In this document: one piece after another, positions 8,735 through 64,000 of the stretch
How the letters are laid out: every line of letters begins with the position of its first letter
Numbering within the stretch: the first letter of the stretch is position 1
NCBI GenBank assembly: GCA_037349105.1
Contig: JAYJMM010000017.1
Location: 434,001 to 498,000 of the forward strand
Source: Limnomonas spitsbergensis
Lineage: Eukaryota; Chlorophyta; Chlorophyceae; Chlamydomonadales
Direction of reading: 5' to 3'
Length of the DNA stretch: 64,000 nt
Translations under genes and position numbers: made by a program
The notes under the pieces: model-generated
Seen by the model: only the letters and a program-made list of their open reading frames with translations
Database searches by the model: none
What the model was told of the DNA's origin: nothing

Positions 8735-11700
8735 ATGATGGCCTTTCCGGCTTGTCGCACGGCGACGAAGGCATTCGTGTCATTCATCTGCCTTAGCTTA
8801 GTCGCTTCGGCGGCCTCGGCATCATTAGGTGCGCCTGCATGAATGAACACTGGATGCGAACAGCGCAGCTTGTTGCAACAACAGTGCGACTGAGTGGCCG
8901 TCGTCACGTGTCTTGCATGGCACTGTTTTCTTGCTGCCCATATGTCGTAGCCAGAGGTCTCTGGTCGTAGCTTCATCTGCCCAAGAAACAACTCTCCAGC
9001 AATGTCTCACCTTCCACCAATTACTCACCTTGGAACATTTGCTACACCAGAATCATGTCTTGAAAATATGCTACATGATAGCTCAGATGTTATCTCTCAT
9101 CAGTCTGGTATGCCCTCACTGCCAGCAGAAACAGAAGCAAGCAGTGACAGGGACTCGAGCGTCGCATCTCGATGGTCATCAAGAAGGTGTGAATCAGAAA
9201 CGCTCGATTTCCAGCGGAGAAACCACGCTGTTAGAATTGAGCAGGCACCAGGAAGTCCCAATTCCAAGTCTCTTTCACCCTGCCTTCCTCTCTGTCCCCT
9301 GGCCTGCAAATATAATGCATGTACATGCCTAGCAAAGGCGTCGCTTAACCTGTGTGACGCCCTACGCCCTGCCCGGATTGACGACCAACAGTTTTTCCGC
9401 AACTGAAGACGATATTTCCTTCTCGTCGTCTTGCAGGGCACTGACACAAACAGGTCCAGACAGCGACGGCAACTACACCTTCCCCCTCAAATACCAAGCA
9501 TTTCCCTGGTGCCTTTGCGACCACGGCTTCTTGTACAATCCGCTGCGCCTCACTTATGATGGCGTCAGCGAAATTAACGGGGACAGCTACATGATGTTCT
9601 TCTTAACGACGATCTCGGTGATAGCCTTGCAGCCGCCCACACCGTGTGCCAGTATGAACGTTCAAAAAGTGGAGTGGAGTGTTGGTGAGTCCTCCATGTA
9701 GTACTAGTACAATGCCCGAGGGGCTTCGCCCATACGAGGAGCATGTTCAGAATGGTGCATACCCGCTGGGCATTGTTGAACGCTCGGCCGCTTAGGGCTG
9801 GTATTGGATGAGCAAGCTCAATTCAAGGTACCGAATCCCTTGGTAGGACTGAAAAGGACTGGTTTTGTCCCAGTTTTTTTGTGTCTTCGCGTCTCAGGTT
9901 TTTAGGGTTGGGCGGCAGGTCTCACACCTTTGTTTAGTCCTAGAAAGAAAAAGTTTGTCCCAGGTTACGAGTCTTTAGTTTTCTAGGGTTGGGCGGCCGG
10001 CCTCACATCTTGTTAAGTCCAAGCACAACATACTCCCGCTCTCTAGCCTGCTGAAAGGGTCTCACAGGACATACCGGGAATGATTGGAGTGCCAGGAAAA
10101 CCGCCTTAAGAAATATGCGCGCATGGGGGACACGTGGCAGTGGCCAGTGGGCAGTGGCTGATGCGCACCAGCGTTTATTTTAGTGTGCACCAGACCAGCT
10201 TACACCGGCTGCTGTGCGGCAGCCACTGGGCCAACGGGGCCCAAACCTTGATCGGCCTCTGGTTGGTGGCCCAAGTAGCAGGGCACGCTGCACCAGGCCC
10301 CCATGCTTGTAAGCCGTGATGTAGCTGAATTGTAGCTGAATTGCCTACGAAATGGGCCACTCAACAATGCGCATGGCGCCTCTCCCTGGATTTGTCCTGC
10401 TTGGCTAACCTTGCCCCCTTCCCCCATCTACCCCTATGCAGCCGGAAATCAACGCGGCTGTGTGCGCAAAGCCCTGGTGGGTTGGCAACAGACGCCCACC
10501 AGCATCGTATTCAACGAGCTCAATAACGGGCGAGCCGATCTGCGGGTCACCGGCCTGTCCTTCTCACAGCAGCAGATACAGGCGCAAGGTAGATTATTAT
10601 GGGGCAAGCGAGAGGGTGTGGCTGTGGGTGGGCAGCAGGAGGATGGGTGGTGGGTCCTCCAACCTGCGGGGGGCACCGGCCTGTTCTTCTCACTGCAGCA
10701 GATACAGGCGGAAGGTACATTACGGAGGGTGTGGCTGTGGGTGGGCAGCGGGAGGATGGGGTGGTGAGCCCTCCAACTTGCGGGAGGTACCTGCCTGTCC
10801 TTCTCACTGCAGCAGATACAGGCGCAAGGTAGATTATGAGGCAAGCAAGAGGGTGTGGCTGTGGAAGGGAAGCGGGAGGATGGGGAGGAGGGCCCTCCAA
10901 CCTGTGGGCCATGGGCCTGTCCTTCACACTGCAGCAGATACAGGCGCAAGGTAGATTATGGGGCAAGCGGGAGGGTGCGGCTGTGGAAGGGAAGCGGGAG
11001 GATGGGGAGGAGGGCCCTCCAACCTGTGAGCCATGGGCCTGTCCTTTACACAGCAGCAGATACAGGCGCAAGGTAGATTATGGGGCAAGCGGGAGGGTGC
11101 GGCTGTGGAAGGGAAGCGGGAGGATGGGGAGGAGGGCCCTCCAACCTGTGGGCCACGGGCCGGTCCTTCACACAGCAGCAGAGACAGGTGCAAGGTTGGC
11201 GAGGGGACAAGTGGGAGGGCGGTATGCGGTGTGCGGGTTGCAGGAGGGTGGGGTTGTGGGTGGGCAGTGGGAGGATGTGACACTGGCCGGTGGGGAGCAG
11301 AAGGAGGGTGTGGCGGTGGTTGAGCTGGGGGAGTGGAGGAACGTGTGGCGGGGCGTGAGCAAGGAGTGGGTGAGGGGGGGGCTGTGGGTGAGCAGTGGAG
11401 GAGCCATCAGCAGGGGCTCAGTCAGAGAGCAGGCTGGTAACGCAGGTTGCAGGAGAAAAGGTGCCCCAATGAAATCTGTGCAGGGCCGCATTTCCTTTGT
11501 TGTTGTCCATGTGTTTGTGAATCCATTCAGCCAATAGCCGTGTCCAAAAGGGCCAGGCAGTGCCGAGATGGTAAGAAAAAACAGCTGTATTTTTTTAGTT
11601 TGGGGGTAAGATCTCTAGTTATGTCTAGTCATGTCCAGTTATATCCAGTTATGTCTAGTTATGTCTAGCTATGTCTAGTTATGCCTAGTCATATCCAGTT

Positions 11701-14700
11701 ATGTCCAGTTATGTCTAGCTATGTCAAGTCATGTCAAGTCACATCTAGTCATGTGTAGTCATGTCCAGTTATGTATAATTATGTCTAGATATGTTACTAC
11801 TAGTAATATATGCCCTCCTTACCCGTAAGCCTTCTCTTGCTGCACAGGGAACATGATCCCCGTTTTCCTGAAACTCGAGCCTGGATGCTCACCCCTCCAG
11901 CTCTTCGGTTTCAACTACTTTGAGTACGCCATCTTCAACCCTGGACACACATGCTGCCCTGTCTCCAAGTTTTTCCCTCGAAATCCTCCGCCGCCGTTTG
12001 TGCCACAGGACATGTCACCGCCGTCTCCTCCACCACTCATGCCTCCCTCTACCCCTCCTCCTTCACCTCCCCCTCCCCCATCTCCCCCTCCCCCACGCCC
12101 TCCTCCTCCCCCGCCAAGCCCACCTCCTCCGAGTCCCCCTCCCCCTCGTCCTCCTCCCCCTCCCCCTCCTCCTCCACCCAGATCTCCCCCTCCCCCTCCC
12201 CCTCCCCCTCCTCCCCCTCCTCCTCCTCCTCCACCCCCTCCCACAAGCCCTCCTCCCCCTCCTCCTCCTCCCCCACCTCCCCCTCCTCCTCCCCCACCTC
12301 CACCCAACCCTCCACCCGAGTCTCCTCCCCCTCCTCCCCCCCCTCCTCCCCCTCCCCCCCCTCCTCCCCCTCCCCCTCCTACCCCTCCTCCTCCTCGCCC
12401 CTCCCCTCCACCTCCGCGCCCCCCTCCTCCGCGCCCCTCCCCTCCCCCTCCAAGCCCCCCTCCTCCGCGCCTCTCCCCTCCCCCTCCAAGCCCCCCTCCT
12501 CCTCCACCACCCCCCTTCATGCCTCAAGCCTACTTCCCTCCTCCACCAGGGGGATTCCCTTACTGCAAGTGAGTTGAGCTGGCTGGACCCATATTTTCCA
12601 CTCTCACTGTGTTAACCCTCTATAATAATATGTATGGTACATATCCGTACGTTCCTCTTCCGCAAGCAAGTGAATCTCCCTTTAGAAAATATATAAGTCG
12701 TGCATCCTGGGTGGAGGATGAAGGAGCCCACCCGTTCGGCTGTAGCAATGAGAAGGCTACTATTTCCACGAGGATGGTCAGGGCCTTTGTAACTAACCGC
12801 GAGCCCAACCGCCTATCAAATGCTAGTGTATTGCCAACCACCCGTCAAAGCATGCTTGGACCTGTCTAATCGTGGCCGTTGCAGGCCGACCCATTGCCTC
12901 GTCAGACTTCAAGCCTTTGTAACTCCACAACAGAGTCCCAGACGCAATGCTACTGACACATCTGTATCCCCTGCATCAACCTAGCAACTAGCATCTAGGA
13001 TCCCAGCATTGATTTGCTTCCTGCTTACTGCCCGCCTGTCTCCCTCCGTGCCGCAGCTGCAACCCGAGCATCAACTCCAGCCCCTGGCGCACAGCCGTGC
13101 AGAGCATCCAAAACCTTGCGAACAACGGCGGACAACGCGTGCAGCTGCAGCTGTATCCCGATGCGTCTGTCATGAAATGCACCCAGTCCATGAGCAAGCT
13201 GGAATTCAACCTGCCGAGCATCGACGGTGAGTTTGATTGTTAAGGGTGAAGGGATCGGCAATACCTTGAAACGCTGGTCATAAAATGCGCTCAGCAACCC
13301 TCAATCCAACATGCGTGGCACTGCTGGCGAGGTTCAGGATAAAAGGATTGGCATTACCTAGGGTTTAGAATTGCCTTGACCCGTTTGTCATGAAATGCGC
13401 TCAGCAAGCTTGAATCCAACCTGACAACTGCTGGTGATTTTGATTGTGAAGGGTGAAGGGATTGGCATTACCTCGACATGCTTGTCATGAAACACACTCA
13501 GTCCATGAGTGGGCTTGAATTCAACCTGCCTAGGGATTGTCGTAAAATGCACTCAGGTCAGTAGAAAGAGTTCAATCTACCGGTAGGCAAGGTTGACTGT
13601 AAGGACCAGCGTTTAGGTTGAGGGTTTGCGATCAAGCTCAAGGATGAGTTACATTGAGCGGCATCAACAGCTTGGACCAGTGTCAAATGAAGTGGGCGCT
13701 AACTGGCGAATGTCTGCTGTTGAATGTGTTCAGTGTCCATGAAGTTTCGCGGCACCTTCCAAGATGTGGACATTAATGGGCGCTCCACCACCGCAGTGTA
13801 CTGGGAGACGAATAGGTGGGTGCCATGACACTGCGCTGTGGGCGTAGCTGGGTACTGGGTGTTGTGGGTAGCTGGGTAGAGGGCGCAATGACAATGGCTT
13901 GTGTGCAATTGGGTAGTGGGTGCTATGACTATGCGTTGTGGGTAGCTGGGTAGAGGGTGCTGTGACAGTGGTTTGTGTGTAATTGGGTAGTGGGTGCTAT
14001 GATAGTGCGGTGTGGGTAGCTGGGTAGAGGGTGCTGTGGGTGCTGTGTCAGTGTGTTAAGGGTAGCTGGCATGGGGCGCTGTGGCGGAAAATTGTAGGTT
14101 GTGGGTTCTTAGTAGCTGTGCTGTGGGCTTCGTGAGTTGACGTGGTGGGAGCCTTGTGCTGGGCACTGGGAGATGACCATGTGGGAGCTAGGGCACTTAG
14201 CTGACAGGGACAAAAAATATTCTGCAGCCGGCGATTGAAGCAGCAGGGCTGGCTGCAACAGCCACCCTGGCCGCAGGCTGTGATGTAGTTGAATTGCAGC
14301 TGAAGCGGGCTAGGACCATCAGCTCCTAAACACAGTAACACGCTCACCTTTCTCCTCGCCCGCCCTGCTTTCATTCTCAGGCCCACTGTGAAGTTCACGA
14401 CTCTCAACGCGCCCTGCCCCGCACCCGGGGCGCCGCCATTCATTCTATCCTTCACGGTCAAAGGAGCCGCCACGTGAGTGCTGCTGGAAGTATGCCCCTG
14501 CACTGCCTGGCGTGGCCTTGTAGTCTGCAGTCAGACTGCAACTTCAGAAGCTTGTTTTGAAGGATCCGTTTGGATGCCTTGGATTGTTGCCATGTGGAGT
14601 GGGGCAGAAGATTAAATGGTATGCTTTGTCATCTATTTCCTCCGCCAGGCCCTGATGGTAGTATTAGTACGGGCACTAGACTAGCATTGTCATGTAACAG

Positions 14701-15344: not shown

Positions 15345-15399
15345 GGCCTTACTAGCGGCCCAGTCAGGAGCAGCTGAAGACATGATTACTGCAGCCAAG

Positions 15400-15458
15400 G
15401 ACGGGCTTGCCTGGCCTGCCAGCTGGTTTTCAACCCGCATGACGGCCCCCTAACGGCA
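15400..15458 (+). repeat. Copy of the terminal exon end after the stop
   Basis: CCAGCTGGTTTTCAACCCGC and a following ATGACGGCCCCC repeat the end of the last pherophorin A exon (CAGCTGGTTTTCAACGCGCT...ACGGCCCCCGAC) about 110 bases downstream, beyond its TGA. It appears to be a relic of duplication of the 3' end. Confidence 0.75.
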
Positions 15459-20783: not shown

Positions 20784-23700
20784 ATGATGAAAACCATGGT
20801 CGCCACACACCAACACCGATCGATGGCGATATATTCGCTCATCGCGTTTCTTTGTTTCAACATCGTAGCAGCGGCAATCACAGTGTCAGCAGGTGAGGGT
20901 GCGGACCATACCGGCAATTAGTACATATTGACCAGCATCAGTAATCATGTTGCTCACCATGCCTCGCTTGTGATCTTGAACCGCCCATCTCGACCAAGCC
21001 CTGCCTCGTTTGAAGCGGTCTATGGTCATCGACATTTACTACCGCGTTGAATGCTTGCCGCTTTTGTTTTGCGCCACATCATGAAGGGCTTGATCAGGCA
21101 TGATCACTAGGCATGTACTAAACCCATGCATGTCATATGCAGGCGACTCGAGCGGCTCAGCAGGCAGCGCGTCCCGATGGCCGAGAAGGTGTGCTCAAAA
21201 CATAACGATTGTCTTGTAGCCATGTACTGGACATTTCTTACTCATTTTCGTATCATGACATTGTGCGTCTGTCACATCGCCTGTACCAGGTAGGTCAACC
21301 CATTCGATTTTCTGGCCTCTCATCACATGCCTGCCTTGCATGCTGTCTCGTCTTGCAGGGCTCTGATGCAAGCCGGCCCCGTGGACACCGACGGCACCTA
21401 CACCTTCCCCCTCCGATACCAGGCCTTCCCCTGGTGTCTGTGTGATCACGACTTCTTGTACAACCCGCTTCGCCTCCTTTACGATGGCGTCGGCGAGATT
21501 GACGGGGACAGCTACATGAAGTTCTACCTGACGACGATCACGGTGCCCATCCTTTACGAGCCTACGCCTTGCTCTTCGTCCAACGCGGGGAAAGTTGAAT
21601 GGGACGTTGGTGAGTTTGCGAACCCAACTGGCCCACTGCTGAACCCTGCCTAGGCATGACTGATGTCATCTTGCCAGCATGCAGTGGGGCAAGGCAGATT
21701 GACAGTCAGTCCAGCGAGCAGTACGTAAGTCAATGGATCTGGGACTATGAATGGGGGGTCCCACTTTGCCTTCCTTAATTCACGCCCCAACAGCGTTTTT
21801 GCTGCCATCCCTATTTTCCAGTGGGCTGGAAATATTGCCTAACAATAGCTGAAGTGTGGAACAGGCAGTATGCTGGAGCTTGGCGTTGTCCATTCAGTAT
21901 GTAGTAGGGCGGATTGGCCTACTGCGTCTTCAGCGTCCACCTCCTTTCCGGAGTATGCAGCACGTGCTTCCATGCATGTATCTGTTGTACTGCACTACTG
22001 CAAACCCTTAGATCACAGTGCCAGCAAGGAACTTATCGCAATAACCCACAGACTGAGCTGGCGCAGCATGGGTTCAACCTTTATCCCTAAACAGCATGGT
22101 GCCTCCCATGCATGGTGCCTGACTACATGGCGTGGTGTACAACCTCACCTGTCAACCATAGGTGGCACCTGCTCCCCGCTCCCTCCTGCTCCCGTGCCCT
22201 TGCAGCTGGCACCCAGCCCGACCCTCACCCTGCTTCCCTCACCCCATCCCGCAGATGGCTCTCAACGTGACTGCGTGCGCAGCGCCCTAGTGGGCCTGGA
22301 CCTGACCCCATCCAGCATCGTTTTCAGCTCGCTCCAAAACGGGCGCGCCGACCTCCGCATCACGGGGCTCTCTTATTCCCAACTGGATATCAAGCTATTA
22401 GGTGAGAGTACTGAACAACACTACTCACTGCCTAATTTATGATGCTTCAGCCACTGTTGAGCTGCATCATGATGGCTGGTCTATCAAGAGCTGCAGCCTA
22501 AGACCCGGCTGCTGGTCGGTCATCAAGTGTAGTGAGTCCCCCTTAGCCTACAACTGCGCCCACTACTGCATGCCCAATGGCCTGGTGCACACATACATTT
22601 TTTCTTGAGCAGCGCATTGCTTAGCAGTGGTAGGCCCCTACCTGCCAAACGCAGCAGTAGCTCCAGTCTGCACAACAGTTCCCCCTCGGACAGCAGCGGT
22701 AGCCAGGCCCCAGCCTGCACAACCTTTTCCCCTTGATTTTATTTCCTCTTAGAACAAGCCTATAGCCCCCAAGCATTTACAGGCCCTGCATACTACTGTA
22801 CTGAACGTACCTTGCATCAAATGTTCTTCAGGTATAGCAATATGCCCAACTTTCTCATGAGTTGCCACTTCAGCTCAAGTCATCCCTTTGCCCTCAATCT
22901 CTCATCCTCACCTTTACAGGCAACAAGGTCCCCGTGTTCCTGAAATTGGAGCCTAGCTGCACTCCCACCAAGCTTTTCACCTATGGCTTCTACCAGTACG
23001 CAATCTTCAACACAGATCACAGCTGCTGCCCCGTCACCAAGATCTTCCCAGGCCTACCAGGCCTACCCATGTCATCCCCGCCGCCGCCCTTTGTTCCACA
23101 AGACCAGTCCCCGCCCTCTCCCCCACCTCTTTCTCCCCCCTCCCCCCCTCCCCCCTCTCCTTCTCCCCCTGCTCCCCCTCCTCCCTATCCACCACCCCCA
23201 AGCCCTCCTCCTCCTCCCCCTCCCCCTCCTCCAAGATCGCCCCCCCCCTCCTCCCCCCCCTCCCCCTCCCCCTCCCCCTCCCCCTCCCCCTCCTCCTCCT
23301 AGACCCCCTCCCCCTTCTCCCCAAGTTCCGCCGCCGCCCCCACCCTTCATGCCCCAGGCATTCTTCCCCCCACCGCCCGGTGGATTCCCCCCACCGCCGC
23401 CCAATTCATTCCCGTACTGCAAGTGAGTGTAATTCAAAAGACCATGCAGCCCTTTTGGGGGGCACTCGTTCTTAGCCCCTGCCCCCCCTTGCTTGGTGTC
23501 CCCCTCAAAGGCCGAACCACACCGGCAGAGGACGTACTGCACTGCATTCAGTGGATCATATTTTTTGCAACCTCCACGCATAGTACCCAACATTTCTTCG
23601 CATCCTACATTGACCGTGGGCCTGTTTGCCACCCCCAGACGCTACTCCCCTCTCCTTCCCCCTGGTGCATTCTTAATCATAGTGACTTCCTCTGATCCTC

Positions 23701-25457
23701 TCCTTGGATGCCGCTCCCCCTCCTCGCATCCTACATTGACCGCGGGCCTGTTTGTCACCTTGCCCCACAGCTGCAATCCGGATATCAACTCCGGCCCCTG
23801 GCGCACAGCAGTTCAGAGCATTGAGGACCTTCCGGGCGGTGGCGGGCAGCGTGTCAAGCTCCTCCTCTTCACTGACGAGTCCGTTGTGAAGTGCACCAAG
23901 CCCATGCAGAAGCTGGAGTTCAACGTGGGAAGCATTTACGGTGAGGACAAGCGTGCAGGGTTTTAGCCGAGCTAAACCATAAAAAGTGTTAAAAAAAACT
24001 AAACCCTAAGCTGGAGTTCTGCTTGTGCTCCCTGAGGCTGCGGCCTGGACAATTTCCATTTAAAGTTTGTTTTGTGTTGCCCATGTTTCACCCATGTGCA
24101 CTTTCAATTCAGTGATGATGGCTTCACAAGTGCTTGCAACCACATGAAGTTAACTAGCTAAACCATGCACCTCAGTCCAGGTTGCGCTTTTTTTGAACTA
24201 TGCAAAGTTTTGCTCATGTGCTCCTGAACGCGACTTCCCATGCCTCAATGTCCCCTCTGGTCCTCCTCTCTAGGGATAGGTATTATGTTTTTCTTTATTT
24301 ACCTGTTGATAGAAGGGGGAAGAGTTCTATGCATTTTTTGTGTTCTAAGCATTTTTGTGTTAACCCATGTGACCCTGCAGCGTCCAACCAGTACCGGGGC
24401 TCCATCAGCCTCAACCCCAACCTTTAAACCCTTTACCCATGTGATTCTGCAGCATCCAACCAGTACCGTGGCTCCATCAGCGATGTCGACCTCAACAACG
24501 TTGGTACCACAGCTGTCTATTGGGAGACATCGAGGTAACAGTGAGATTGGATCTGAAATTATGTAGATGTAGGTTGTCCCTTGGTAGTAATGGGATCTAA
24601 GTTGGGTCCTAACATTATAGGAGAATGTCGATCTGAATGATGTTGGCACCACAGCTGTCTATTGGGAGACATCCAGGTATCAGTGGGATTGGATATGAAA
24701 TTCAACAGATCTAGGTAGCGTCCATCTCAATTGTCGGTTTTCAATTGTGTGGCCCCACTTCCCTGGACCCTTAACCCTGACCTTAAGCCCTATTCCACAC
24801 CCCTTTATTGTGTACCAACCCTGACCTCCTTTCCACACACCCCACCACCTGTGTAGGGCTATTGTCAAGTTCACAACCCTCAGGATCCCCTGCCCGCCAC
24901 CCGGCATTCCGCCATCCGTGCTGACCTTCACCGTTTCGGGAGCGGCTGTGTGAGTGGGATGGCTGACAGATATATGGGCTGTGGGATGGCAGGCAGATAT
25001 CTAGGTCTTGGGATGGCTGACAGATATATGGGCTGTGGGATGGCAGGCAGATATCTAGGTCTTGGGATGGCTGACAGATGTATAGGGTGTGGGATGGCTG
25101 GCCGTTATATAGGGCTTCTGGAGTGCATTCGATGCTGCCTTCTCTAAAACACGTCCGCATCCAGCAAAGTGCACTGACTGGCTGTCTTTTGATGATACTG
25201 TTGCGCACACAAAAAAAGTTGTATATGTTGATATGTAGAGCTTTCATGCCCACTCTGGTACCTTCCTATTGGCTTCCTGGCATCCCATGCCCTTGCTCTT
25301 GTAGCCACCTGCTGACTTGCTTTGCCCTCCTTCATGCCTTTACAGATCTTTGTTCCAAGTGTGTGGTCAGCCCGTGTGCGAGTACGCAATTTTCAACACA
25401 GACGATCTCTCGGGCGCCTGCCCAGTGGGAAGATTTTCCACAAGAGTGTATCGCTGA
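20784..25457 (+). CDS. Pherophorin B (9 exons) with a frame break in the Pro-rich rod
   Basis: Paralogue of pherophorin A. Exons: 20784-20892, 21143-21188, 21359-21609, 22255-22401, 22920-23422, 23771-23940, 24453-24534, 24857-24949, 25346-25457. Exons 4, 6, 7 and 8 have exactly the lengths of A (147, 170, 82, 93) and all phases match. Exon 1 gives a signal peptide (SLIAFLCFNIVAAAITVSA). The first domain includes [20 protein letters not shown] and ends SCCPVTKIFP; the second includes NPDINSGPWRTAVQ and VCGQPVCEYAIFNTDD. Exon 5 has 503 bases, one more than phase requires (or two fewer). The rod frame entered from domain 1 therefore ends at TAG 23300-23302, while the rod frame leading to domain 2 is the neighbouring one. 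The break lies in C-runs near 23236-23265, so an assembly error is as likely as a real mutation. Confidence 0.85.
23090..23400 (+). repeat. Pro-codon tract of pherophorin B, site of frame change
   Basis: CCT/CCC repeats with runs of eight or more C. Between about 23236 and 23300 the frame must shift by one base to join the two pherophorin domains. Confidence 0.85.
24366..24690 (+). repeat. Three staggered copies of pherophorin B exon 7
   Basis: The full exon (24453-24534) is flanked upstream by a copy of its 5' half with acceptor (CCCTGCAG then GTCCAACCAGTACCGGGGCT, 24373-24412) and downstream by a copy of its 3' half with donor (ACAGCTGTCTATTGGGAGAC then ATCCAGGTATCAG, 24626-24690). The upstream copy loses frame to a TAA. 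This is the clearest example of acceptor-side copies lying before and donor-side copies lying after an exon. Confidence 0.92.
24950..25120 (+). repeat. Tandem repeat starting at the exon 8 donor
   Basis: GGGATGGCTGACAGATATAT and GGGATGGCAGGCAGATATCT units (about 30 bases each) alternate five to six times, beginning at the GTGAGTGGGATGG donor sequence itself. Confidence 0.88.
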
Positions 25458-26980: not shown

Positions 26981-26984
26981 GGCT

Positions 26985-53329: not shown

Positions 53330-56300
53330 ATGCTGTGTAAAGGCGATCGAGTCGTCTGTAAACGCACCTCCTCGCGCGTGTCTTGGAAGCCCGCGGCGGG
53401 CGGCTCAGTCTCCTCCTGCTGCGGCACCGCGGCAGAGGCCTCAACTCGCAAAAGTGAGGCACCGTCAGCGCTGCCTGGTTCCCTCACCCAGAGGTCAACC
53501 TTGTACTGATGAAGCTGGGGACATTGCTGCTCAGCCACACATGGATCAGAGTTGCTCAGCGTGGTGTTGGGGCAGTTACAGCATGACAGTGCAAGGGGTG
53601 CAAGCCAATGCATTGAACTGGTGCCTCCCTCCCCATCCTCATAGCATGAATCCCCTCCCCTAAATAAATCTACACGCGACACCCATCTCCGGAGCCAAAG
53701 CCTAACTGCCTGCTATTGAAGAGGGATTAAGGCCATTCCCCCTGTTGTTGTGGGTGTCTGGGTTTGTTGCAGCGCGCATCAAACCACCTTTAGCAGGCCA
53801 CTGGGCAGCCGCCACAGAATCGATGGGGAACAAACCTTTTACCGGATTTAAATTCAGGGGACAGCTCAGCTACATCACACGACCTACGACCGGTGGCCCA
53901 AGCAGCAGGGCTTACTGCAGTAATCCAACCTAGCATATGGCAGTGGTGTAGCTGAGCTGTGGCTGAAGCACCTTAAAGTAACATATAAACAGTGCTGGGG
54001 GACATGTTCAGCTACCTATCAGCCTCTTTCATGCCTCGCCTGCCATTCTGCTTGGGCCTGGTGGTAGCCTGGTCCAGGTTTGGTTCCCATTGGGGTTCTC
54101 GCCGCCAAAAGGATGGCCCGCCGGTGGTCAAGCGCCCAGCCTCAAATCCTTATCCCTTTAGCTCCACCTCATCCAGTCTAGCCTCAAATCCTGAACCTTT
54201 GACCTCCAACTCCTTCAACCTAGCCTTAAATCCTGAATTCTTTGTTGCAGCCTCAAATCTAGGACCCTGAACCCTTAACCAGAGTTTGTTTTTCGGCTAC
54301 AAGCTCAACTTTGGCAGGCCGCCCATCTGCGGCAGATGGCCCAATTGGGACCAAACCTGGACCGGCCTGCCACTGGTGACCAAAGCAGCAAAGCTGGCCA
54401 CGAATAGGGCCTAAGGCCAGAGGCCGGAGTGTAGCTGACATGTAGCTTAGTGACGCAAAACTGAAACACTGCCTTTTAACCCTAAACCTCAAGCCTCATG
54501 CCCTGATGGCATCCTGTTCGGAGCGGCTCGCAAATATGCTGGCACGCCCTCAGAATCGTCAGGCCCATTGTGCTGTCGCTGTCCTGGCGCCCTGAACTCC
54601 ATGTCCAGATGCCTGTCTTCCCCCCTTCCCCCCATAGGGCACATGAGTTTTAGCGCGAGTTTGTTGACAAAGGCTCGTCCCCTGGCTCACCCCGAAATGG
54701 CTCTGTCCCATGCGCATGGTGCCTCTTGCGGCATGCTCATCCACGTCTCAGATTATTTGAAATAGGCCCTAAGCCCCGCTTCATACTTTGCCTTCAGTCT
54801 TGTATGATGAGATCTTGTCGGCATGGCTGGTGTCGCCTGACTCGTCGTGCGGCTTCTTCAGCAGCCCCAACAAGGTGCGCCGACGTGCAGATTGATTGCG
54901 TTATCATGGCTTGAGGCGTAGGCCATTGCTCCATGCATGTGCCAGTGCTCCATGCATGCATGCATGCTTGCATGTGCCATTGAGCCACGTGCCTCGCATC
55001 ATGTTTCCATCTGCCATCTTGCCATCTTGCCATGCATTCTCGGAAGCATGGGCTATGCGTCATGTTCCACACATGCACTCCCGCTCAAAAGGAAACATGT
55101 CCACTGTAGTACATTATGTCCATCGTAGTACACTATGTGGAGGAACACCAAAAGCCCGCCCCCCACATAGGACCGTCTGACTTGGGATCGTTGCCATGCC
55201 CCCCCCCCCCTGCCGTATCTGACTCTAGCTACTTCCATGCCTCTCCTGCCCGCCCCACAGGACTTCCCTTTCACCATCTACAGCTTGGAGAGAGAGAAGG
55301 GCAAGCCCAGCAGCTGGAATGTGCGGGAAGACACACTGGCTGCGCCCACCCTAGAGCAGGCGGGTTTCATCTTAGCGTTTTTCAGCTACATTTCAGCTAC
55401 GTCAGGGTAGAAATGCTGGCTGCACCCACTGTTGGGGCTCAGCACTGTTTGATTGAAGGGGGCTCAATATTCAGCTACATCCCAGCATACTGCTGGGGGG
55501 GGTCCATGCTGGCAGCCCTGCTGCTTGGGCCACCGGCTGTAGGCTGGGCGAGGTTTGGTCCCGATCGGCTGACTGATGGCTACTCTGCAAGCCGATTAGC
55601 CGAAGGAGGTCTGCTGGGTACGAAAATCCACCTGAGGTCACCCATGGGCAGTGTCTATTTCTTCGTGACTCAGCTACATGTCAGGTACACTCCGGCCTCT
55701 GGCCGGGGGGCCATTTTTGGCCAGCCATGCTGCTTTGGCCACCAGCTGTAGGCCAGCCCAAGTTTGGTCCTAATCGGGCCTTTCGCGGCCGTGGCGCGGC
55801 CTGCCAGAAGGAAAATTTGTAGCTGGAAGAAGAAATACTACCGGCAACCATGGGATGCCTACATAAGCACATTGCATCCATTTGAGGGTACCGGTATACC
55901 AATATGGCCACATAGCATCCATTTGAACCCATTTCCCAGTTCTTTGTTTTATCCTATGGATTTTATAACGTATGGAAAGCTTGTGCCGTACGCCTATACT
56001 CTGCGTACCGATGCAAGCATGATCTTTTGTTGATCGCATTATTGATACGTGGTGGCCTGCCACTTTTAGCGGCAGGCCATAAGCACGCTTTGAAAATGCC
56101 TCAGATCTGCCTCCATTCCCAAAACCCTGCATTGTACTTCCTTTGCTGCAGGCCAAAGAGTGGGTTGTTGCCATCAACTCAGCAGTTGCCCTCAACCAGG
56201 ACAGGTGGGCAGCAGTGATTCTTTTCTTGGCTACGAGGCCACTACCATCAGCAGGCCGCCCCGTGGCCGTTACCGGCCCCATTGTTACCAAACCTGGACC

Positions 56301-59300
56301 AGCCTACGGCGGCAGCCCAAGCAGCATGGCTGGCCTCACCTGGGGCCTCTGGCAGGGAGCCTGTTTGTAGCTGATATGTAGCTGACTCGAGAAGAAAAAA
56401 ACGCTTGTGGGCGAAAGGAGGATGTCTTAGGCACTTGTTTGGCCACATCCACATATCCAGCGGAGCAGTCCCGGTGTGCTGCCCAGTATTTTTTTTCCGG
56501 CTACAAGTTCAACTTCGGCAGGCCGCCCAGCAGCCGTCACAGGCCCCATTGGGACCAAAATTGACCTGTGAATGGTGGCCAGCGCAGCATGGCTGGCCAC
56601 ACCTGGGTCCTCTGGCCAGAGGCTGGTGTGTAGCTGACATGTAGCTGAGTCACCAAAAATAAGCACTGGTGCTGCCAGCCCCGCCGCCTGGGCTGCCAGG
56701 CAGCGCCAGTGATGCTTTGATCCCAATTGGCCCTCCAGAGGCCGCCGGACTGCAACTGAAAGGTTGTCTAGTTAGCACTAGCAACAGCCCCAGATGTAGG
56801 GTCTGCAGAATGCTATTCGGTCCAACACTTTTTGCACTAAATCAGCCTTGACTGTGCCATTTTTCTTGCAAACAAAAACTTGCTTCTTCAGCCTCCGGTG
56901 TCCATCATGCCCTCATCAATGGCACCTGCCTGGTTGTGTGTCATTCACACTTCTGTACATCAGTACATGTTAGTCATTCACACTTCTGTACATCAGTACA
57001 TGTTAGTCATTTTCTGAACCCTGAGGGTCACAGCCTGAGAAAGTGTGTGCATGCGAATCCGATTGGCATATGTATATTGGGGCATGTGCGAGCAAGCGAT
57101 TCCTGCAAATGTGTGAATGCAAAGCCTGGGAGTGGGCGCGCGAGTGTGTGTCTGTGTGTGCACGCCTCGCAGCCTACTCGTCTTGATTGCCGCCTCGGTT
57201 TCAAAACAGTTTGTCTGCTTTAAATGAGTAGCCAAGGCCTGAGAGTGTGCTATCCTTTGTCTGCAGGCCTCGCAGCCTGCTAATTTTTGTCAACCCCGTC
57301 AGTGGATCCTGGCAGTCAAGAGAGGTGCGTGGGACAGGCAGACATGAACAAGACCCTCGCGCACATGGCCCATGAGGCTGGGACCCGTGTTACTTTTTTG
57401 ACAACGAGGCTGTCATCGGCAGGCCGCCCCGCGGCCGTCAGAGGACCCATCTGGACCAAACCTGGATTGGCGGCAGCCCAAGCAGCATGGCTGGCCCACG
57501 CCTGGGGCCTCTGGAGGGGAGCCTGCTTGTAGCTGATGTCATTACGTGATTGTGTACCTGACTCGCGAAAAAGAGGAATGCTGGCTGGGACGAGTCCTGT
57601 ACTGCCAGTGTTACTTTTTGGCTTCAAGTTCAACTGCAGCAGGCCGCCAAAGGCCCAATAAGAATCAAACCTGGACCGGCCTGCAACTAGTGGCAAGAGC
57701 AGCAAGGCTGGACACGAACGGGGCCTCCGGCCAGCGGCCTGTGTGTAGCTGACATGGAGCTGAGACACGAAACTGTCTGAAAGCCGCCTTTCGCCCCTGT
57801 GCCCGCAGCTCTGGAAGGCCCGCGCGGCCCCTGTGTTCCAGAAGGCTCGCATCCGCTGCACCGTGATCGAGACGCAACGCACGGGCCACGCCATTGAGGT
57901 CATCGCAGGCATGAAGGCGGAAGAGATGGAGCAGTACCAAGGCCTGGTGGCGGTTGGTGGCGACGGGCTCTTTCAGGTGGGGGGAGTATTTAGAGGGGTG
58001 TGTGTGTGTGTGTGGCTCAGACACATGTCAGCTACACAGCCGGAGTTAAACTTGTCGCCAAACAAATAAGCTCTGGGAGTGGAGGGACGGGTGTTAGCGT
58101 GGAATTTTTATCCCACTCGGCTAAAGGGATGCTCAAGACAGCAGGAAAGCACATGGCTGCTAGTTATTCCTTTGACAAGGGGGGAAGGTGGTATGATTTA
58201 GCAGTGTTTAGCAATGCCTGGTGGCGGTGATGTAGCTGACTTGCAGCCATGAGATAGGTAGTGCAAAGCTGCGCTCGACCCTGCAGGAGCTAGTGTTTGC
58301 GCTGATCAAGTGGTGGGTAGCTGTTCGCTGTTTGATTAATCTGAAGTGAAATGTAAGCACCCTGATAAAAAAACCTTGTCAAATATGGGATGAGGCTTTA
58401 GGCTAAACCCTCAACCCTGCATTAAAGCAGGAGCACCCTGAAACAAACATTGTTAACCATGGGATTAGGGTTACGCCTACACTTTTAACCCTGAATTGAA
58501 GCAGGAGCACCTTGATACAAACATTGTCAACCAAGGTTTAGGGTTAAGGCTTCACCCCTAACCCTGAAGTGAAGCAGGAGCACCCTGATAAATAAACATT
58601 GCCAACCATGTTTCCATATTCAGGAGCTAGTAATTGGGCTGGTCAAGCAGCGAGGAGCGGGTATGTCCAAGGGAGGGCGCATGAGGGTGGGGCACATCCC
58701 CGGAGGCAGCACTGACGCAGTGGCCTACACGTGAGTGGGTGGGCAAGAGAGGGTGGTGAGGGTTCAGGGGGACACGTCTAGGATGCAGGGTTCCAAACCT
58801 GAATTGCATCCCGAGTAGATTGTGGGAGGTGACGCTGATGCTTTGACCTGCTCAACCGTTAACCCTGATGGCCTAGCTTTAACGGTCAAGTCCTGTCAGG
58901 CTGCATGGCATGCATTCTGGGGCATTGTGTCGCTTTTGTTCTAGACTCAGCTACATGTCAGGTACACTCTGACCTCTGGTTGGAAGGCAGAACTTCTGGT
59001 TCGCCTTGCTGCTTGGCCACCAGCCGAAAGCCGGTCCAGATTTGTTCCCAATCGGGCCTTCGGCAGCCCCGCGGCGGCCTGCCAAAGGTGGACTTGCAGC
59101 CCAAATTGTAACCAGACTCTGTGAAGGCCCTGTTTAACCCTCTACCTTCAACTCTACAAATCTTACATCAACCCGTAAATCCTCTCAGGCTGCATGACAA
59201 GCGGTCCGTTGAGGCCTTACCTAACCCATAATGGCTATCCCTTGTCCCTGAGTTCCTCGATTTGACCCCTCTCACGCTGCATGACACGCAGTCCGTGGAG

Positions 59301-62300
59301 GCCTTACTTTACCCTCTACGGCAATCCCTAAACCCTGAACCCTTCATCTAAGATCCTTACCTTGATCCCTCTCAGGCTGCACACCATGCAGTCCGTGGCG
59401 ACCTTGATTTACCCTTAACAGCAAACCATCAACCCTAACCCTCAACCCTTCCTTTGACCCCTCTCAGGCTCCATAACACGCGGTCTGTGGAGGCCGCCGC
59501 GCTGCACATCGCTTTAGGGGACCGGCAGATGCTGGATGTGGCTCGTGTCGACGCTCAGGTAGGGAATGGTGTTGGAGCAGATCTGGGGGGCTGGCAGGTG
59601 CTGGATGTGGCTTGTGTGGATGCTCAGGTGGGGAAGTGTGGGAGCAGATCTGGGGGAGCTCACAGATCTGGGGGGCTTGCAGGTGCTGGATGTGGTTCGC
59701 GGGGACGCGCAGGTGGGGAACGGTGTCGGATCAGATCTGGGAGATCTCTCAGACCTGGGGGGCTGGCAGGTGCTGCATGTGGCTCGTGTTGATGCTCAGG
59801 TGGGGAAAGTGTGGGAACAGATCTGGGAGATCTCTCAGGTCTGGGGAGTTGGTAGGTGCTGGATGTGGCTCGTGTGGACACCCAAGTGAGCGGAAATATC
59901 TTACCAGGGGATGCGGGATATGTTTTATTATTTTATTCATTGGCAGCTGTACATCTAAAAAGCCGGCAAGTTATGGATGTCGCTCAATTGCGGTGTGCAC
60001 AGTTTTGCATGTTTTTATCAGGGGAAGTTGATATAGCAAGTTGTTTGTTGTAGATTGACAGTTTGTAGATCAGGCAGGCCCTCTGCGCTGCGCTGCCTCT
60101 GGCCTGCCTACCCGCCTTTTTGCCGCCAAGGTTCCTGTACACAACAGACAGTGGGAGGCGACATAGGTACCGTTATGACTAACTTGGATGATAATGACAA
60201 GAACCGTCACGGTATCCACGATGATTCATAAGGATATTCACGATGACTGATGAGGGTATCCACGATGATTCATAAGGATATTCACGATGACTGATGAGGG
60301 TGTTCACGATGATTCATAAGGATATTCACGATGACTGATGAGGGTGTTCACGATGATTCATAAGGATATTCACGATGACTGATGAGGGTGTTCACGATGA
60401 TTCATAAGGATATTCACGATGACTGATGAGGGTGTTCACGATGATTCATAAGGATATTCACGATGACTGATGAGGGTGTTCACGATGTCAAATTAGGGTT
60501 TCCAAATGAATTGTGTGCACCATTTGTGGATACCATGATTCAGAATCACAAGGGTGCAGTCTGCGGCTCGGAGGCTGCTGGATGTCTTACTGAATGCAGG
60601 CAGTCTGACAGCCCTCATCCGCCTCACACATGTTCACACATGTTCACACTTCTTCATACGCATGCAGGACGGGTCTCATCGGCACTTTGTGTGTCAGGCT
60701 GCGTACGGCTTCCTCGGGGATGTCATGAAGTTCAGCGAGGGGCTGCGCATGCTAGGACCAAGCAGGTATGGGGGAACTGGGGGGGGTGGGGAGAGCAGGT
60801 ATGGACACTGGGGGGGAGGCTGCGCATGCTAGGACCAAGCAGCAGGTATGGGGAAGTGTGGGGGGAGAGGCAGGTGCATGTTGGTATGCCTAGAAGGTAT
60901 GCATACAGCGTGACTGAGTGGAGTTGGAGGGTTATCCTAGGACCAAGCAGGTATGGGGGCTGGGGGGGAGAGGGGCGCCTGATGGGATCAAGCAGTATGA
61001 AGACTAGAGGAGGACAGGTGTGTGTGGGGGGGCTTTCAGGAAACCTCCTCGTGTGTAGTTTGTCTTGTCATCTAGAATGTAGTGACCTCACACGCACACT
61101 GTAGACTATGCTTATTCTTCTGTTATTTGCCACACATGCCGAAGGCTGATATGTACCACTGACTCGTAGCCAGAGGACCCTGAAATAAACAATGTCCTTG
61201 ACGTCTGCGTTTGTTGCAAGCATGACCCCCCTCCGTCTGAAGCTGATTTATAGCTGAATCATGCTTTGATAGATCGTCCTGTTGTGTTTGTTGCAGGTAT
61301 GAAACCTCCGTATGTAGCTGATTTGTAGCTGAATCACGCTATACGAGATCGTCCTGTTGCGTTTGTTGCAGGTATGACCTCTCCGGCGCGCTGAAGTACT
61401 TGCAGCTCAAGTCGTACCGCATGCTGATCAGCTACCAGTCCGCCTCTGACACGCGGCTTGACACGGTGTGTGCAGTACAGAATGCTCTGGCATAGTGGAA
61501 TGCTATCGGCAGGAAGGGGGCAAAATGCACTCTGCGGAGCAGCAGTGCATGTCCCTAAACCATTCTGCATGACAAATGGTTGGACATCCAAACAGGGCGC
61601 TGGACACAAGATACCGGGCGGTACTAGTGATTCTTTTATCTGACTCGGCTACATGTCAGCTACAATCCGGCCTCGGGCCTGTGACCCCAATTCTGGCCAG
61701 CCATGCTGCTTTGGCCACCAGTTGTAGGCTGGTCACGGTTGGTCCAAATTGGGCCTAAGGCGGCCGCTGGGCGGCCTGTTGATGGTGGATATGTGGCAGA
61801 AAAAAGAATCACTGGGCGGTACCTGGCCCGGGCTACGTGTACGCTGCCAATCGTGTTTGAAACCTGAAGGAGGCACTTCTTTGTACATCATATGACACTA
61901 AGGCCGCCATGGCTGCCCAAAGACCCCCTCTAACAGCGGCAACAGGGTACGTTGCTCTAGCATGACGAATATCTGGTTGGGAAACAAAAACGGGCCCGGG
62001 AAACACATACCGACACAGTGGTGCAAGATGTCCAGTATTGTTTTTGGTTCTTAAGTTTAAAAAATTAAGGCGGTACTTCATTGTACATCGTGGTAACAAG
62101 GCCGCCATGGCTGACGAAAGATCCCACCCCCCCACCAGCATCGGGCAGCATAAGTCCCCGGCCCTGAGCATGTGCATTAGAAAAGCCAGACACCGAATGC
62201 TGGCACGTTGCCCCCCTCCGCTTGTCTGCCGCCCCCCACCCCGCTGGAGTCCATCCGGCATGCCAGTGTGGCTCTTCACCCCGGCTGATGCTTAGCCTCG

Positions 62301-64000
62301 GGCCTCCCCTTGTACCCTGCTTTCTTCACCCCCCCTGATTTCCTCAACCCCTCTGATTTCCTCCTCCAGATCTGTGCGCACCGCTGCCACACCTGCAACG
62401 AGGCTGGAAACATTGTGTCCCTGCCCATGGCGTCTGACGCCGCCAACACGTTCCTGACCCCGGCAAAAGTAGCGGCAGCAGCGGCGGCTGGCAAGGCGGC
62501 CGGCAAGGCAGCAACTGCTGTCCCGCCTACTCAAGGCTCAAGCAGCAGCAGCAGCAGTAGGAGCAGCAGGAGTAGCGACGACGAGGGGAAGTTAGTGGCT
62601 AAGCAGCAGCCGGGCCAGCAGCGGGCCGCTGAGACGTTGCCGACGCCGCTTCTGTCAAGCACGACGGGGAAGAGCGACGAGCAGCAGCCGGGCGACGGAG
62701 CGGCAGCCGGGCGGTGGCAGTCGGGCGCCAGCGCGAAGACGGCGGGCGGGGCGGGAGCAGCTGCTGCGGCAGCAGCGGACGGTCCGGACGGCGTTGGGGA
62801 GCACAGCAGCAGAGACGAGGGCGGGGGCGCGTGGACATCGCTTGAGGGGGAGTTCATTTCGGTCATGTCTGTTGTGACGCCTTGCCGCAGCGATAAGAGC
62901 AAAAAAGGTGAGCCACCTGGCAGGCCACGGGGGGCAAGCCTCGAGTCTATGTGATGGGAGCTGGGTAGGGTTGACATGCAAGTCTTTGCAAGTGGACATG
63001 CATTTGTTTTTCCTTTTTTTAGTTTTAGGGTTAAGAGTTTTAGGTTTTTAGGTTTTTTTTTACAGTTCTCTGAAATTATTGAGATTGTACCTTGTTCATT
63101 CTTGAGGTTGAATCTCTGGACCCCCTGCTCTAGATGAGCTTGAGGTAGATGATCAGCTACCAGTCCGCGTACCACCACCAAAAGCGCACCAGCCACCAAG
63201 GAAGGAGCGGCAGGTCCGGGTAAATATTCATTTGTTGAATGGTAGCTCACCTGGTGCTACGGCCGAACGGGTGGCTTCCTTAATCCGCGCGTCAGGGCGA
63301 ATCGTTTATTCATTTGTTTTGAAGGTCAGTGGGGCAGGTCTGAGGTGCAGCCTCTGGATAAGCTCTCGATGTGGCGCCAGGGCCCTTGCCCGTGCCCCAT
63401 TCCCTCTGCATTGAGCTGCCCGTGCCCCTGTTCGGTTCCCAAGGCCATCGAGATGACTGGGCAACCGTCAGACGCTTTCCCGCCCATCCTGCAGGTCGGC
63501 ACACACAAAATGCGACTCATGCCCGGCTGCCCGCTCAGTGACGCATTTCCTGCCCAGTAATGCTTGTCCCAAACGTCCCCTGCCCACAGCGTATCTGCAT
63601 GTACCTGATCCTCTTGCGGAAATAACACCCTTCTAGTACCGGTGCACATCGAATATTTCCTTGTTGAAAAAACGAACGCTTTCCAATCTCCATGCGTGGG
63701 GACAAGGCACGCATGGAAAGCGTTCGTTTTTTGTCTTGTCCCCACCTGTCACTCGGCGGACGGGCACATGTATGCGTACCCCATCTCCGTGCAGAAGTGC
63801 AACCTGTCCACAGTGCACCGAATCTTTCCTTGTTAATCAAGCAAGAACCCTGTTCCATGCCTGCAGGTCTTGTCCCCACTGGGCACCTTGCGGATGGGCG
63901 CATGCATGGGCACCTCATCCTCGTGTTGTTGCGGAAGTGCAACCTGTCCACAGTACACTGAATCTTTCCTTGTTAATAAAGCAAGAACCCTGTTCCATGC
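53330..64000 (+). CDS. Ceramide kinase-like lipid kinase (partial, runs off right edge)
   Basis: Phosphorylates ceramide or a related sphingoid lipid using ATP, by family. Exons: 53330-53453, 54798-54874, 55261-55359 (GC donor), 56152-56204, 57267-57324, 57809-57976, 58624-58730, 59468-59558, 60668-60765, 61372-61465, 62370-62907, then a phase-compatible 3' exon from 63867. Residues 1-118 are PH-like (DFPFTIYSLEREKGK, AKEWVVAIN). The DAGK-type catalytic domain starts PRSLLIFVNPVSGSWQSRE, with VGGDGLFQE (GGDG at 187-190), HIPGGSTDAVAY (219-224), AAYGFLGDVMKFSE and RYDLSGALKYL. C325, C329 and C332 form the CxxxCxxC motif typical of ceramide kinase. An Ala/Ser/Gly-rich insert (about 350-470) follows, then EGEFISVMSVVTP and GHLADGRMHGHLILVLLRKC. 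Start is the first in-frame Met after a stop. Introns hold exon-end copies and many dispersed elements. Confidence 0.85.
53785..53973 (+). repeat. Dispersed element copy, CERK intron 1
   Basis: Core GCAGGCCACTGGGCAGCCGC and a GTGTAGCTGAGCTGTGGCTG end; contains a ~30-base insertion relative to other copies. Confidence 0.65.
54294..54452 (+). repeat. Dispersed element copy, CERK intron 1
   Basis: Near full length: CGGCTACAAGCTCAACTTTG start, GGGACCAAACCTGGACCGGC core, GTAGCTGACATGTAGCTTAG end. Confidence 0.85.
55381..55582 (-). repeat. Dispersed element copies (reverse), CERK intron 3
   Basis: A short end fragment (TTCAGCTACATTTCAGCTAC, 55381) is followed by a larger reverse copy from 55470 (TTCAGCTACATCCCAGC, then TGCTGCTTGGGCCACCGGC). 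Confidence 0.65.
55666..55828 (-). repeat. Dispersed element copy (reverse), CERK intron 3
   Basis: Full-length reverse copy: GACTCAGCTACATGTCAGGT start, CTGCTTTGGCCACCAGCTGT core, AAATTTGTAGCTGG end. Confidence 0.85.
56228..56388 (+). repeat. Dispersed element copy, CERK intron 4
   Basis: Begins 24 bases after the exon 4 donor, with GCAGGCCGCCCCGTGGCCGT core and GTAGCTGATATGTAGCTGAC end. Confidence 0.8.
56498..56652 (+). repeat. Dispersed element copy, CERK intron 4
   Basis: Best-preserved copy: CGGCTACAAGTTCAACTTCG start, GTAGCTGACATGTAGCTGAG end, 155 bases. Confidence 0.9.
57115..57195 (+). repeat. Upstream copy of CERK exon 5 acceptor region
   Basis: GCCTCGCAGCCTACTCGTCT here mirrors exon 5's GCCTCGCAGCCTGCTAATTT ~110 bases later, with similar preceding sequence (AAGCCTGGGAGTG versus AAGGCCTGAGAGTG). 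This copy has no AG acceptor. Confidence 0.75.
57400..57565 (+). repeat. Dispersed element copy, CERK intron 5
   Basis: GGCAGGCCGCCCCGCGGCCG core and TTGTAGCTGATGTCATTACG end; internally shortened. Confidence 0.75.
57618..57768 (+). repeat. Dispersed element copy, CERK intron 5
   Basis: GGCTTCAAGTTCAACTGCAG start, AATCAAACCTGGACCGGCCT core, GTAGCTGACATGGAGCTGAG end. It ends about 40 bases before the exon 6 acceptor at 57808. Confidence 0.85.
58287..58620 (+). repeat. Copy of CERK exon 7 start and intronic tandem units
   Basis: CCCTGCAG then GAGCTAGTGTTTGCGCTGAT (58287) copies the start of exon 7 (GAGCTAGTAATTGGGCTGGT, 58624). Between them lie three to four ~70-base units of GAAGCAGGAGCACCCTGATA with AAACATTGTCAACCATGG and TTAGGGTT. 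Confidence 0.88.
58944..59108 (-). repeat. Dispersed element copy (reverse), CERK intron 7
   Basis: GACTCAGCTACATGTCAGGT start with GCTGCTTGGCCACCAGCC core; the far end is eroded. Confidence 0.8.
59175..59467 (+). repeat. Three copies of CERK exon 8 start
   Basis: The acceptor and first ~30 bases of exon 8 (CCCTCTCAGGCTCCATAACA then CGCGGTCTGTGGAGGCC) recur at about 59185, 59271 and 59371 as CTCTCAGGCTGCATGACA-type units ending in GAGGCCTTAC or GCGACCTTGA. Two of the three keep the CTCTCAG acceptor; one has CTCTCACG. Confidence 0.92.
59525..59890 (+). repeat. Five copies of CERK exon 8 end plus donor
   Basis: CAGATGCTGGATGTGGCTCG then TGTCGACGCTCAGGT ends at 59558. Copies end at 59627, 59712, 59799 and 59885 (steps 69, 85, 87, 86). 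The first alternative donor, GGTGGGGAAG at 59628, is 69 bases on and in frame. AGATCTGGGGG or AGATCTGGGAGATC separates units. Confidence 0.93.
60207..60487 (+). repeat. 44-base tandem repeat in CERK intron 8
   Basis: At least six near-identical units of TTCATAAGGATATTCACGAT followed by GACTGATGAGGGTGTTCACGATGA-type sequence. There is no spacer diversity, so it is a satellite-like array and not CRISPR. Confidence 0.95.
60745..60985 (+). repeat. Copies of CERK exon 9 end plus donor
   Basis: GCTGCGCATGCTAGGACCAA then GCAGGTATGGGG ends at 60765. The same string recurs near 60810-60850 and, shorter, near 60935-60955 (CCTAGGACCAAGCAGGTATG) with GGTATGGG donors intact. Confidence 0.92.
61222..61371 (+). 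repeat. Duplicated acceptor region of CERK exon 10
   Basis: Two ~70-base units of TAGCTGAATCATGCTTTGAT, GATCGTCCTGTTG and GTTTGTTGCAGGTATGA. The upstream copy (CAG at 61295-61297) has the same TTGCAGGTATGA but then diverges into CCTCCGTATG. Confidence 0.9.
61642..61800 (-). repeat. Dispersed element copy (reverse), CERK intron 10
   Basis: GACTCGGCTACATGTCAGCT start and CATGCTGCTTTGGCCACCAG core. Confidence 0.82.
61855..62125 (+). repeat. Two diverged copies of a ~70-base segment
   Basis: GGAGGCACTTCTTTGTACAT...AAGGCCGCCATGGCTG at 61868-61916 and GGCGGTACTTCATTGTACAT...AAGGCCGCCATGGCTG at 62068-62113. Intronic; no function seen. Confidence 0.7.
63480..63866 (+). repeat. Decayed copies of the 3' CERK exon
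   Basis: The segment TGCAGGTCTTGTCCCCACTG ... GCGGAAGTGCAACCTGTCCA at 63862-63956 is preceded by a copy at about 63728-63835 (GCACATGTATGCGTACCCC; AAGTGCAACCTGTCCACAGT) and an older one near 63585-63660 (TGCATGTACCTGATCCTCTT). A GAACCCTGTTCCATGC block ends two units and also ends the window, so the array continues. Confidence 0.85.
63667..63734. repeat. Fold-back inverted repeat
   Basis: AAAAACGAACGCTTTCC (left) pairs with GGAAAGCGTTCGTTTTT (right), and CATGCGTG pairs with CACGCATG. The loop is about nine bases and a six-base bulge lies in the left arm. It sits between the first and second copies of the 3' CERK exon. Confidence 0.88.

Follow-up and report, generated by a model that had tools for sequence, protein, structure and literature searches.

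Tandem copies of exon edges within introns of a chlamydomonadalean green alga

What lengthens an intron, and how does it come to hold copies of the ends of its own exons? The initial annotation of the window (the whole stretch of 64,000 nucleotides analysed here; C17:434001–498000) reported that the introns of four unrelated genes, that is, pherophorins A and B, an EDR2-C gene, and a ceramide kinase-like gene, contain stacked copies of exon edges together with their splice sites. The locus raises the questions of whether these copies are real, whether they recur elsewhere in the genome, and whether exon–intron junctions are special targets of the duplication.

Exon-edge copies in the window

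The window DNA is nuclear and belongs to a chlamydomonadalean green alga; the assembly has 260,226,709 bp in 124 contigs, and contigs of up to 10.7 Mb suggest that it is a long-read assembly. The best named relatives of the ceramide kinase-like and EDR2-C proteins are from Chlamydomonas eustigma (67% over 69% of the query) and Haematococcus lacustris (59% over 92% of the query), respectively; no relatives were found in viral contig and genome contig collections. The five EDR2-C exons (E1–E5) were located by tblastn with homologs, as were most of the ceramide kinase-like exons, and the exons of pherophorins A and B were taken mostly from the alignment of the two paralogs. Splice sites were read off the sequence, as was a small number of pherophorin exon ends that fall within or ahead of the proline-rich part; homology support is lacking for four putative exons at 39246–42537, which contribute 8/64 junctions. 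The window has 28 complete introns (18,603 bp in total; median length 634 bp). In pherophorin B (22920–23422), the proline-rich part shifts frame in a C-rich stretch at ~23240–23300, the result of either a sequence error or a real break. At 29735–34279 (− strand) lies an open frame of 1514 aa, apparently retrotransposon gag-like, with a zinc knuckle (CFQCGSLDHLARDC) and perhaps a protease motif.

Each 40-nt exon edge was aligned to its adjoining intron and compared with dinucleotide-preserving shuffles (p<0.01); using this edge test, copies are found at 24/64 junctions (0.64 expected), that is, at 11/33 acceptors and 13/31 donors. Homology-supported exons alone give 19/56 junctions, and middle-of-exon controls give 3/28. 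Exon-plus-intron queries with a score of at least 18 identify 69 copies at 27/64 junctions, with 1–6 at each; shuffled queries for the same 64 junctions identify 0 copies. Side and orientation are also as first described, with copies of exon starts and their acceptors located upstream, copies of exon ends and their donors located downstream, and all in direct orientation: correct-side copies are found at 18/56 window junctions and 15/26 junctions in EDR2-C paralogs, as compared with 1/67 in the wrong-side control and 0/82 in the reverse-complement control. The junction copies are therefore real, but their extent was overstated. All four genes have them, unevenly: the pattern is dense in the EDR2-C gene (9/9 junctions), moderate in the ceramide kinase-like gene (6/18), and sparse in the pherophorins (4/29; 2/13 in A and 2/16 in B), with 5/8 in the putative exons upstream of the EDR2-C gene; and 14/28 complete introns, that is, half and not ‘most’, have at least one significant junction. 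The exons and arrays are as follows.

10442–11402 (+): pherophorin A exon 10442–10588 (exon by A/B paralogy) and five downstream exon-end copies with donor, spacing 114–126 bp
13057–13624 (+): pherophorin A exon 13057–13226 and decayed exon-end copies, three at a score of at least 18 (edge test, copy search)
13734–14203 (+): pherophorin A exon 13734–13815 and a donor-side array with a short exonic part, missed at p<0.01 by the 40-nt edge test alone
24360–24716 (+): pherophorin B exon 24453–24534 (82 bp), one acceptor-side copy at 24360–24421 and one donor-side copy at 24625–24716 (edge test)
38506–39828 (+): putative exon 39246–39369, no homology support, acceptor-side copies upstream and donor-side copies downstream (edge test, copy search)
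40849–41830 (+): putative exons 41289–41413 and 41689–41830, no homology support, acceptor-side copies upstream (edge test, copy search)
42454–42843 (+): putative exon 42454–42537, no homology support, two donor-side copies downstream (edge test, copy search)
43138–43895 (+): EDR2-C E1, 43612–43760, acceptor-side copies at 43138–43546 and donor-side copies to 43895 (tblastn exon, edge test)
44050–45420 (+): EDR2-C E2, 44559–44741, acceptor-side copies upstream and six donor-side copies at 44801–45420 (tblastn exon, edge test)
45425–46236 (+): EDR2-C E3, 45815–45932, acceptor-side copies upstream and three donor-side copies, ~88 bp spacing (tblastn exon, edge test)
46332–47835 (+): EDR2-C E4, 47023–47152, five copies on the acceptor side upstream and, downstream, four on the donor side (score at least 18; tblastn exon, edge test)
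47854–48221 (+): EDR2-C last exon E5, 48069–48221, two acceptor-side copies, 85-bp spacing (tblastn exon, edge test)
58852–59895 (+): ceramide kinase-like exon 59468–59558, four copies on each side, acceptor-side ones upstream and donor-side ones downstream (tblastn exon, edge test)
60668–61465 (+): ceramide kinase-like exon 60668–60765 with donor-side copies at 60818–60975, and exon 61372–61465 with acceptor-side copies at 61206–61310 (edge test p=0.017)
63733–64000 (+): 134-bp tandem repeat with acceptor-side copies of the following ceramide kinase-like exon (start at ~64433, beyond the window)

The copies are spaced by a median of 115 bp (36/57 spacings within 85–147 bp). In 57/69 copies the alignment includes 15 nt or more of exon and 15 nt or more of intron, and the unit therefore covers the junction. 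Offsets at the acceptor near L009:426 are 140, 280, 426, 566, and 700. Decay tends to be stronger in copies farther from the exon (mean rho −0.48 for the 18 junctions with at least two copies, p=0.011), although the closest copy is the best match at only 10/18 junctions; the decay first described is thus a tendency. Local duplication of any sort covers 46% of the complete introns and junction-linked families cover 31%; in the EDR2-C gene, the figure is 55–89% for each of four introns.

Where copies align through the junction, the splice dinucleotide is intact in 28/32 donor copies and 20/31 acceptor copies, so purging of decoy sites is not evident. In a wider set (103 copies at 38 junctions in the window, three EDR2-C paralogs, and one kinesin donor), the donor dinucleotide matches in 108/113 cells vs 2334/2670 for other positions (p=0.008, a value that is generous because the copies are related to one another), hinting at selection on the donor GT; the acceptor dinucleotide in the same set is not specially kept (79/90 vs 1759/2050, not significant).

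Several observations stand apart from the arrays. Telomere-like CCCTAAA/TTTAGGG words are scattered in the introns, some as tandem units (39876–40160, 47360–47450, and 58341–58610), and probable GC-AG introns are located at position 55359 of the window and at position 2111 of the kinesin locus L060 (reverse complement). The pherophorin B exon at 24453–24534 gave the idea that start- and end-copies have complementary breakpoints; this was dropped because the end-copies of the putative exon 39246–39369 seem to span most of that exon.

Recurrence in EDR2-C paralogs and other genes

Diverged EDR2-C paralogs are present in the same genome, and the same exons were annotated in four of them (C9, C90, C41, and C124). 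Copies are found at 23/38 junctions of this family, that is, at 9/9 in the window, 7/9 in C9, 4/4 in C90, 3/7 in C41, and 0/9 in C124. At the E3 donor, the unit is 88 bp in the window, ~104 bp in C9, and ~144 bp in C41; C90 has one copy at 119 bp and C124 has none. At sites where the window and C9 exons differ, the window copies match their own exon by 146:36 and the C9 copies match theirs by 141:18, with no clear own-exon preference at 3/9 window junctions (E1 donor, 5:4; E2 acceptor, 5:4; E5 acceptor, 5:8). Because the copies mostly match their own exon, most arrays arose, or became uniform, after the paralogs split.

A pair of kinesin genes located 15 kb apart on C124 (94% alike over the exon concerned and ~84% over the other aligned pieces) provides a second comparison. 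In L060, an exon end with a GC donor (CAG/GCAAGT) and some intron is present nine times as an 89-bp unit; in the other paralog, the equivalent donor has no copy and the same intron contains one acceptor-side copy. The differing arrays at the same EDR2-C junctions and the nine-unit array in one kinesin paralog only show that the duplications recur independently, and recurrent tandem duplication across exon–intron junctions, as first proposed, is well supported by the paralog arrays, the own-exon matching, and the kinesin pair.

Intron positions in the EDR2-C family are unchanged. All five paralogs, whether they have arrays or not, have E3 (118 bp) and E4 (130 bp) in the same places, as well as the beginning of E5, and at the exons compared in this family (the one family compared) no new intron was created. 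The E3–E4 intron is 225 bp in the array-free C124 and 1090, 1131, 1367, and 3220 bp in the four genes with arrays; for the E4–E5 intron, the length is 202 bp in C124 and 816–1263 bp in the others except C41, where it is 557 bp and no copy reaches p<0.01. Introns in this family thus tend to be longer where arrays are located; for 17 introns, the correlation between length and copy number is weak (rho 0.48, p=0.05), and two long introns have no copies at p<0.01 (1355 bp in C124 and 1865 bp in C41). A homolog from another organism (P0009) seems to read through the E3–E4 intron (42 codons, ~126 nt, counted by eye). The E2–E3 intron of C41 (L058) contains an intron-internal array of ~40-bp units with TTCAG/GTGC, in which acceptor-like and donor-like words are adjacent.

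For kinesins, 11 stretches from 143 matches were chosen by domain and by compactness with several hits, a choice that under-samples long introns; copies are found at 12/66 junctions, in 6/11 stretches, as compared with 1/21 in controls; in this count, one L060 intron yielded no splice sites and one L060 donor was misplaced. For CCT chaperonins (30 of 86 matches, taken as loci), copies are found at 5/57 exon edges and 2/56 controls; the edges are the ends of domain hits and not exact junctions, so this count is likely to be low. Some CCT genes are paired on different contigs with similar domain hits (C36/C119, C39/C99, and C84/C114), as alleles or old duplicates would be. Beyond the window, 2/3 edges of the ceramide kinase-like gene have copies. 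Several unrelated gene families thus have the pattern, though unevenly, and copies are more frequent in the window than in the rest of the genes sampled. To call junction duplication a main route by which introns grow in this genome is justified for the EDR2-C gene and, given the kinesin and CCT counts, too strong as a general statement.

Tolerated duplication as a probable explanation, and its alternatives

We favor the explanation, with a probability of roughly 0.7, that frequent head-to-tail duplication of 50–200 bp segments, tolerated across junctions, lengthens introns with decaying edge copies while leaving their number unchanged. Short segments, mostly of this size, would be duplicated frequently in the alga's genes, and the resulting arrays would grow or shrink. 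Within a coding exon, most such duplications would disrupt the protein; one that spans a junction would be tolerated because an intact junction remains beside the exon and the extra copies fall within the intron. Introns would lengthen at both ends as copies of exon edges and splice sites stack and decay. The origin of the duplications would probably be ordinary slippage, unequal exchange, or end-joining, junction-specific machinery would not be needed, and splicing presumably ignores the copies. Several results count against tolerated duplication: the weak correlation of copy number with intron length, the two long introns free of copies, the three window junctions with no clear own-exon preference, the donor GT that is kept, and the flush excess and family density described below. 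In addition, with a conserved exon as the reference, the exon and intron parts of the copies should differ clearly in identity, yet their means are 0.83 vs 0.82 in the 69-copy set (p=0.26); in the larger set they are 0.881 vs 0.867 for donors and 0.881 vs 0.834 for acceptors. Faster decay of the intron part is absent in the former and small in the latter, where it is clearest on the acceptor side; local alignment may mask a larger difference.

The alternative with the most to commend it is that junctions are favored, either by duplication tied to transcription or splicing or by selection for redundant splice sites and exon-end signals that help splicing. In the raw form of the comparison that the initial annotation named as its refuting test, applied here to the window, 20/56 junction-centered windows and 282/623 intron-interior windows are duplicated, the opposite of a junction excess; this comparison was set aside as the sole test because the interior windows include the junction copies themselves. 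We then asked whether duplicated families end flush with a junction: exons were masked, 50–200 bp families were collected from intron sequence alone using their fundamental period, and the expectation was obtained by random placement of units in introns reduced to the length that they would have without the duplications. Flush families number 15/20 in the window (8.9 expected, p=0.003), 10/14 in the EDR2-C paralogs (6.3 expected, p=0.027), and 6/13 in the kinesins (5.4 expected, p=0.46), or 31/47 when pooled (20.6 expected, p=0.0007). The window and EDR2-C sets were picked for their visible pattern, whereas the kinesin set, chosen by domain, was not, and its flush families agree with geometry alone; the kinesin test used 27/33 introns (domain gap <25 positions), with L060 re-set by hand, and the six introns left out include two with donor-side copies (L063 and L068). 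An earlier version took each family's strongest period and thereby misplaced arrays that matched best at a multiple of the unit; earlier versions gave 14/20 in the window (1.9, 5.0, 6.3, or 8.9 expected, depending on the model), 9/14 in the EDR2-C paralogs (5.7 expected), and 5/10 in the kinesins (4.7 expected).

The flush excess in the window and EDR2-C paralogs, together with the donor GT that is kept in copies above other positions and the low density of 50–200 bp families in sequence that lacks gene models (4 in 15.2 kb vs 20 in the 18.6 kb of window introns), favors a junction preference; the kinesin result, the choice of the other two sets, the acceptor AG that is not specially kept, and the raw windows argue against it. 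The initial claim that junctions are favored over intron interiors is therefore upheld in the first two sets and not in the kinesins or the raw windows. In these small samples, the unit size (~100 bp) and the short introns account for most of the junction association, and a real preference is possible. We regard a mechanism that favors junctions as improbable, and the broader proposal, that junctions in this lineage genuinely attract ~100-bp duplication or are selected for it, with decoy splice-site arrays made and kept by a junction-linked process or by selection favoring extra donors as a genome-wide mode of intron growth, as unlikely also, if slightly less so.

The copies could also be alternative exon ends that diversify the protein. 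Many retain the GT or AG that such ends would require, but use of the 42 intact copies in genes of known frame would break the protein in 40 (an in-frame stop in 37 and a frameshift in 3, with 2 open). The copy spacings also show little regard for frame (remainders modulo 3 of 0, 2, and 1 for 26, 24, and 19 spacings), and the arrays differ between paralogs, so we give this possibility very little weight.

An artefact of assembly or collapse is more improbable still. A few near-identical arrays (L060, E5 of C90, and E3 of C9) could be miscounted by an assembler; most window copies, however, differ by >10% from the exon, which mis-assembly does not produce, and the pattern recurs at many loci in an assembly with such long contigs. 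We judge equally remote the insertion of introner-like or other mobile elements at splice junctions. Introners likewise make introns appear in bursts, and interspersed repeats do occur in the ceramide kinase-like introns; yet at 24/24 significant junctions no edge from an unrelated window gene scores as high in that intron, and the paralog arrays are largely locus-specific. The repeat in and near the ceramide kinase-like gene (TGTAGCTGACATGTAGCTGAG, GGCAGGCCGCC) is diverged and interspersed (54279–54471, 56203–56671, 57375–57772, and others) and is not a junction array. Mutually exclusive or alternative tandem exons were rejected, as exon edges and not exon middles are copied and 2/42 intact copies are open and in frame.

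Known systems and significance

The closest published case that we found is the potato RdRp gene, for which the available text describes one tandem duplication across an intron–exon boundary (Ma, Lan and Niu 2016, PMC4974935). As in the alga, an exon edge, its splice site, and some neighboring intron make up the unit, which is repeated in direct tandem; unlike the alga, the potato gene has, in that text, a single event on the acceptor side that created a new intron, whereas the algal arrays occur on both donor and acceptor sides, reach nine units, affect many junctions and genes, arise independently in paralogs, and, as far as the EDR2-C exons compared show, are not accompanied by a new intron. 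In the Rogers 1989/Hellsten 2011 model, as summarized in PMC3443670 and PMC4974935, duplication of an exonic AGGT segment gives a new intron that is flanked by the two AGGT; local tandem duplication that reuses splice signals is common to that model, so summarized, and the alga. In the alga, however, an existing exon–intron junction is doubled and the old intron lengthens, and an exon-only origin of the copies does not fit the 57/69 that align intron as well. Internal gene duplication duplicates gene-internal segments, some with introns (Gao and Lynch 2009, as cited in PMC4974935); the portion of PMC4974935 at hand does not mention stacked, decaying exon-edge arrays that grow introns, and the original paper may.

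Introners are described in the accessible part of a 2022 PNAS article (PMC9860276) as a recurrent intron-shaping process, mainly in fast-evolving groups such as green algae. As presented there they are mobile and common to many genes, whereas the algal copies are local and junction-specific; similar sequence across unrelated genes was not found in the cross-gene edge control in the window, and the arrays are paralog-specific. In the related alga H. lacustris, 47.3% of the genome is reported as repeats, mostly <2 kb with tandem patterns, and the available sections of that report draw no link to exon–intron junctions (PMC7617258). For six core-Reinhardtinia algae, the corresponding part of PMC8226300 gives median intron lengths of 198–343 bp, as compared with 634 bp (n=28) in the window, and leaves open what drives intron length. 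We found no description of systematic junction arrays in the literature searched, which excludes most subscription journals, nor in the accessible portions of PMC12702839, PMC3488318, and PMC6330051; a single event of the same type, that of the potato gene, has been published.

In this alga, growth of introns by stacked copies of their own ends can be read directly and repeats independently in paralogs. Intron lengthening is usually ascribed to transposons and small insertions. The arrays are also natural tests of splice-site choice: they present rows of similar donors or acceptors, of which only the one adjacent to the exon is expected from the protein. Simple splice rules (the first AG after the branch point, the intron-proximal donor) would often choose another copy. 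With such strings of spare splice sites in its introns, the cell must apparently ignore them to make the right protein.
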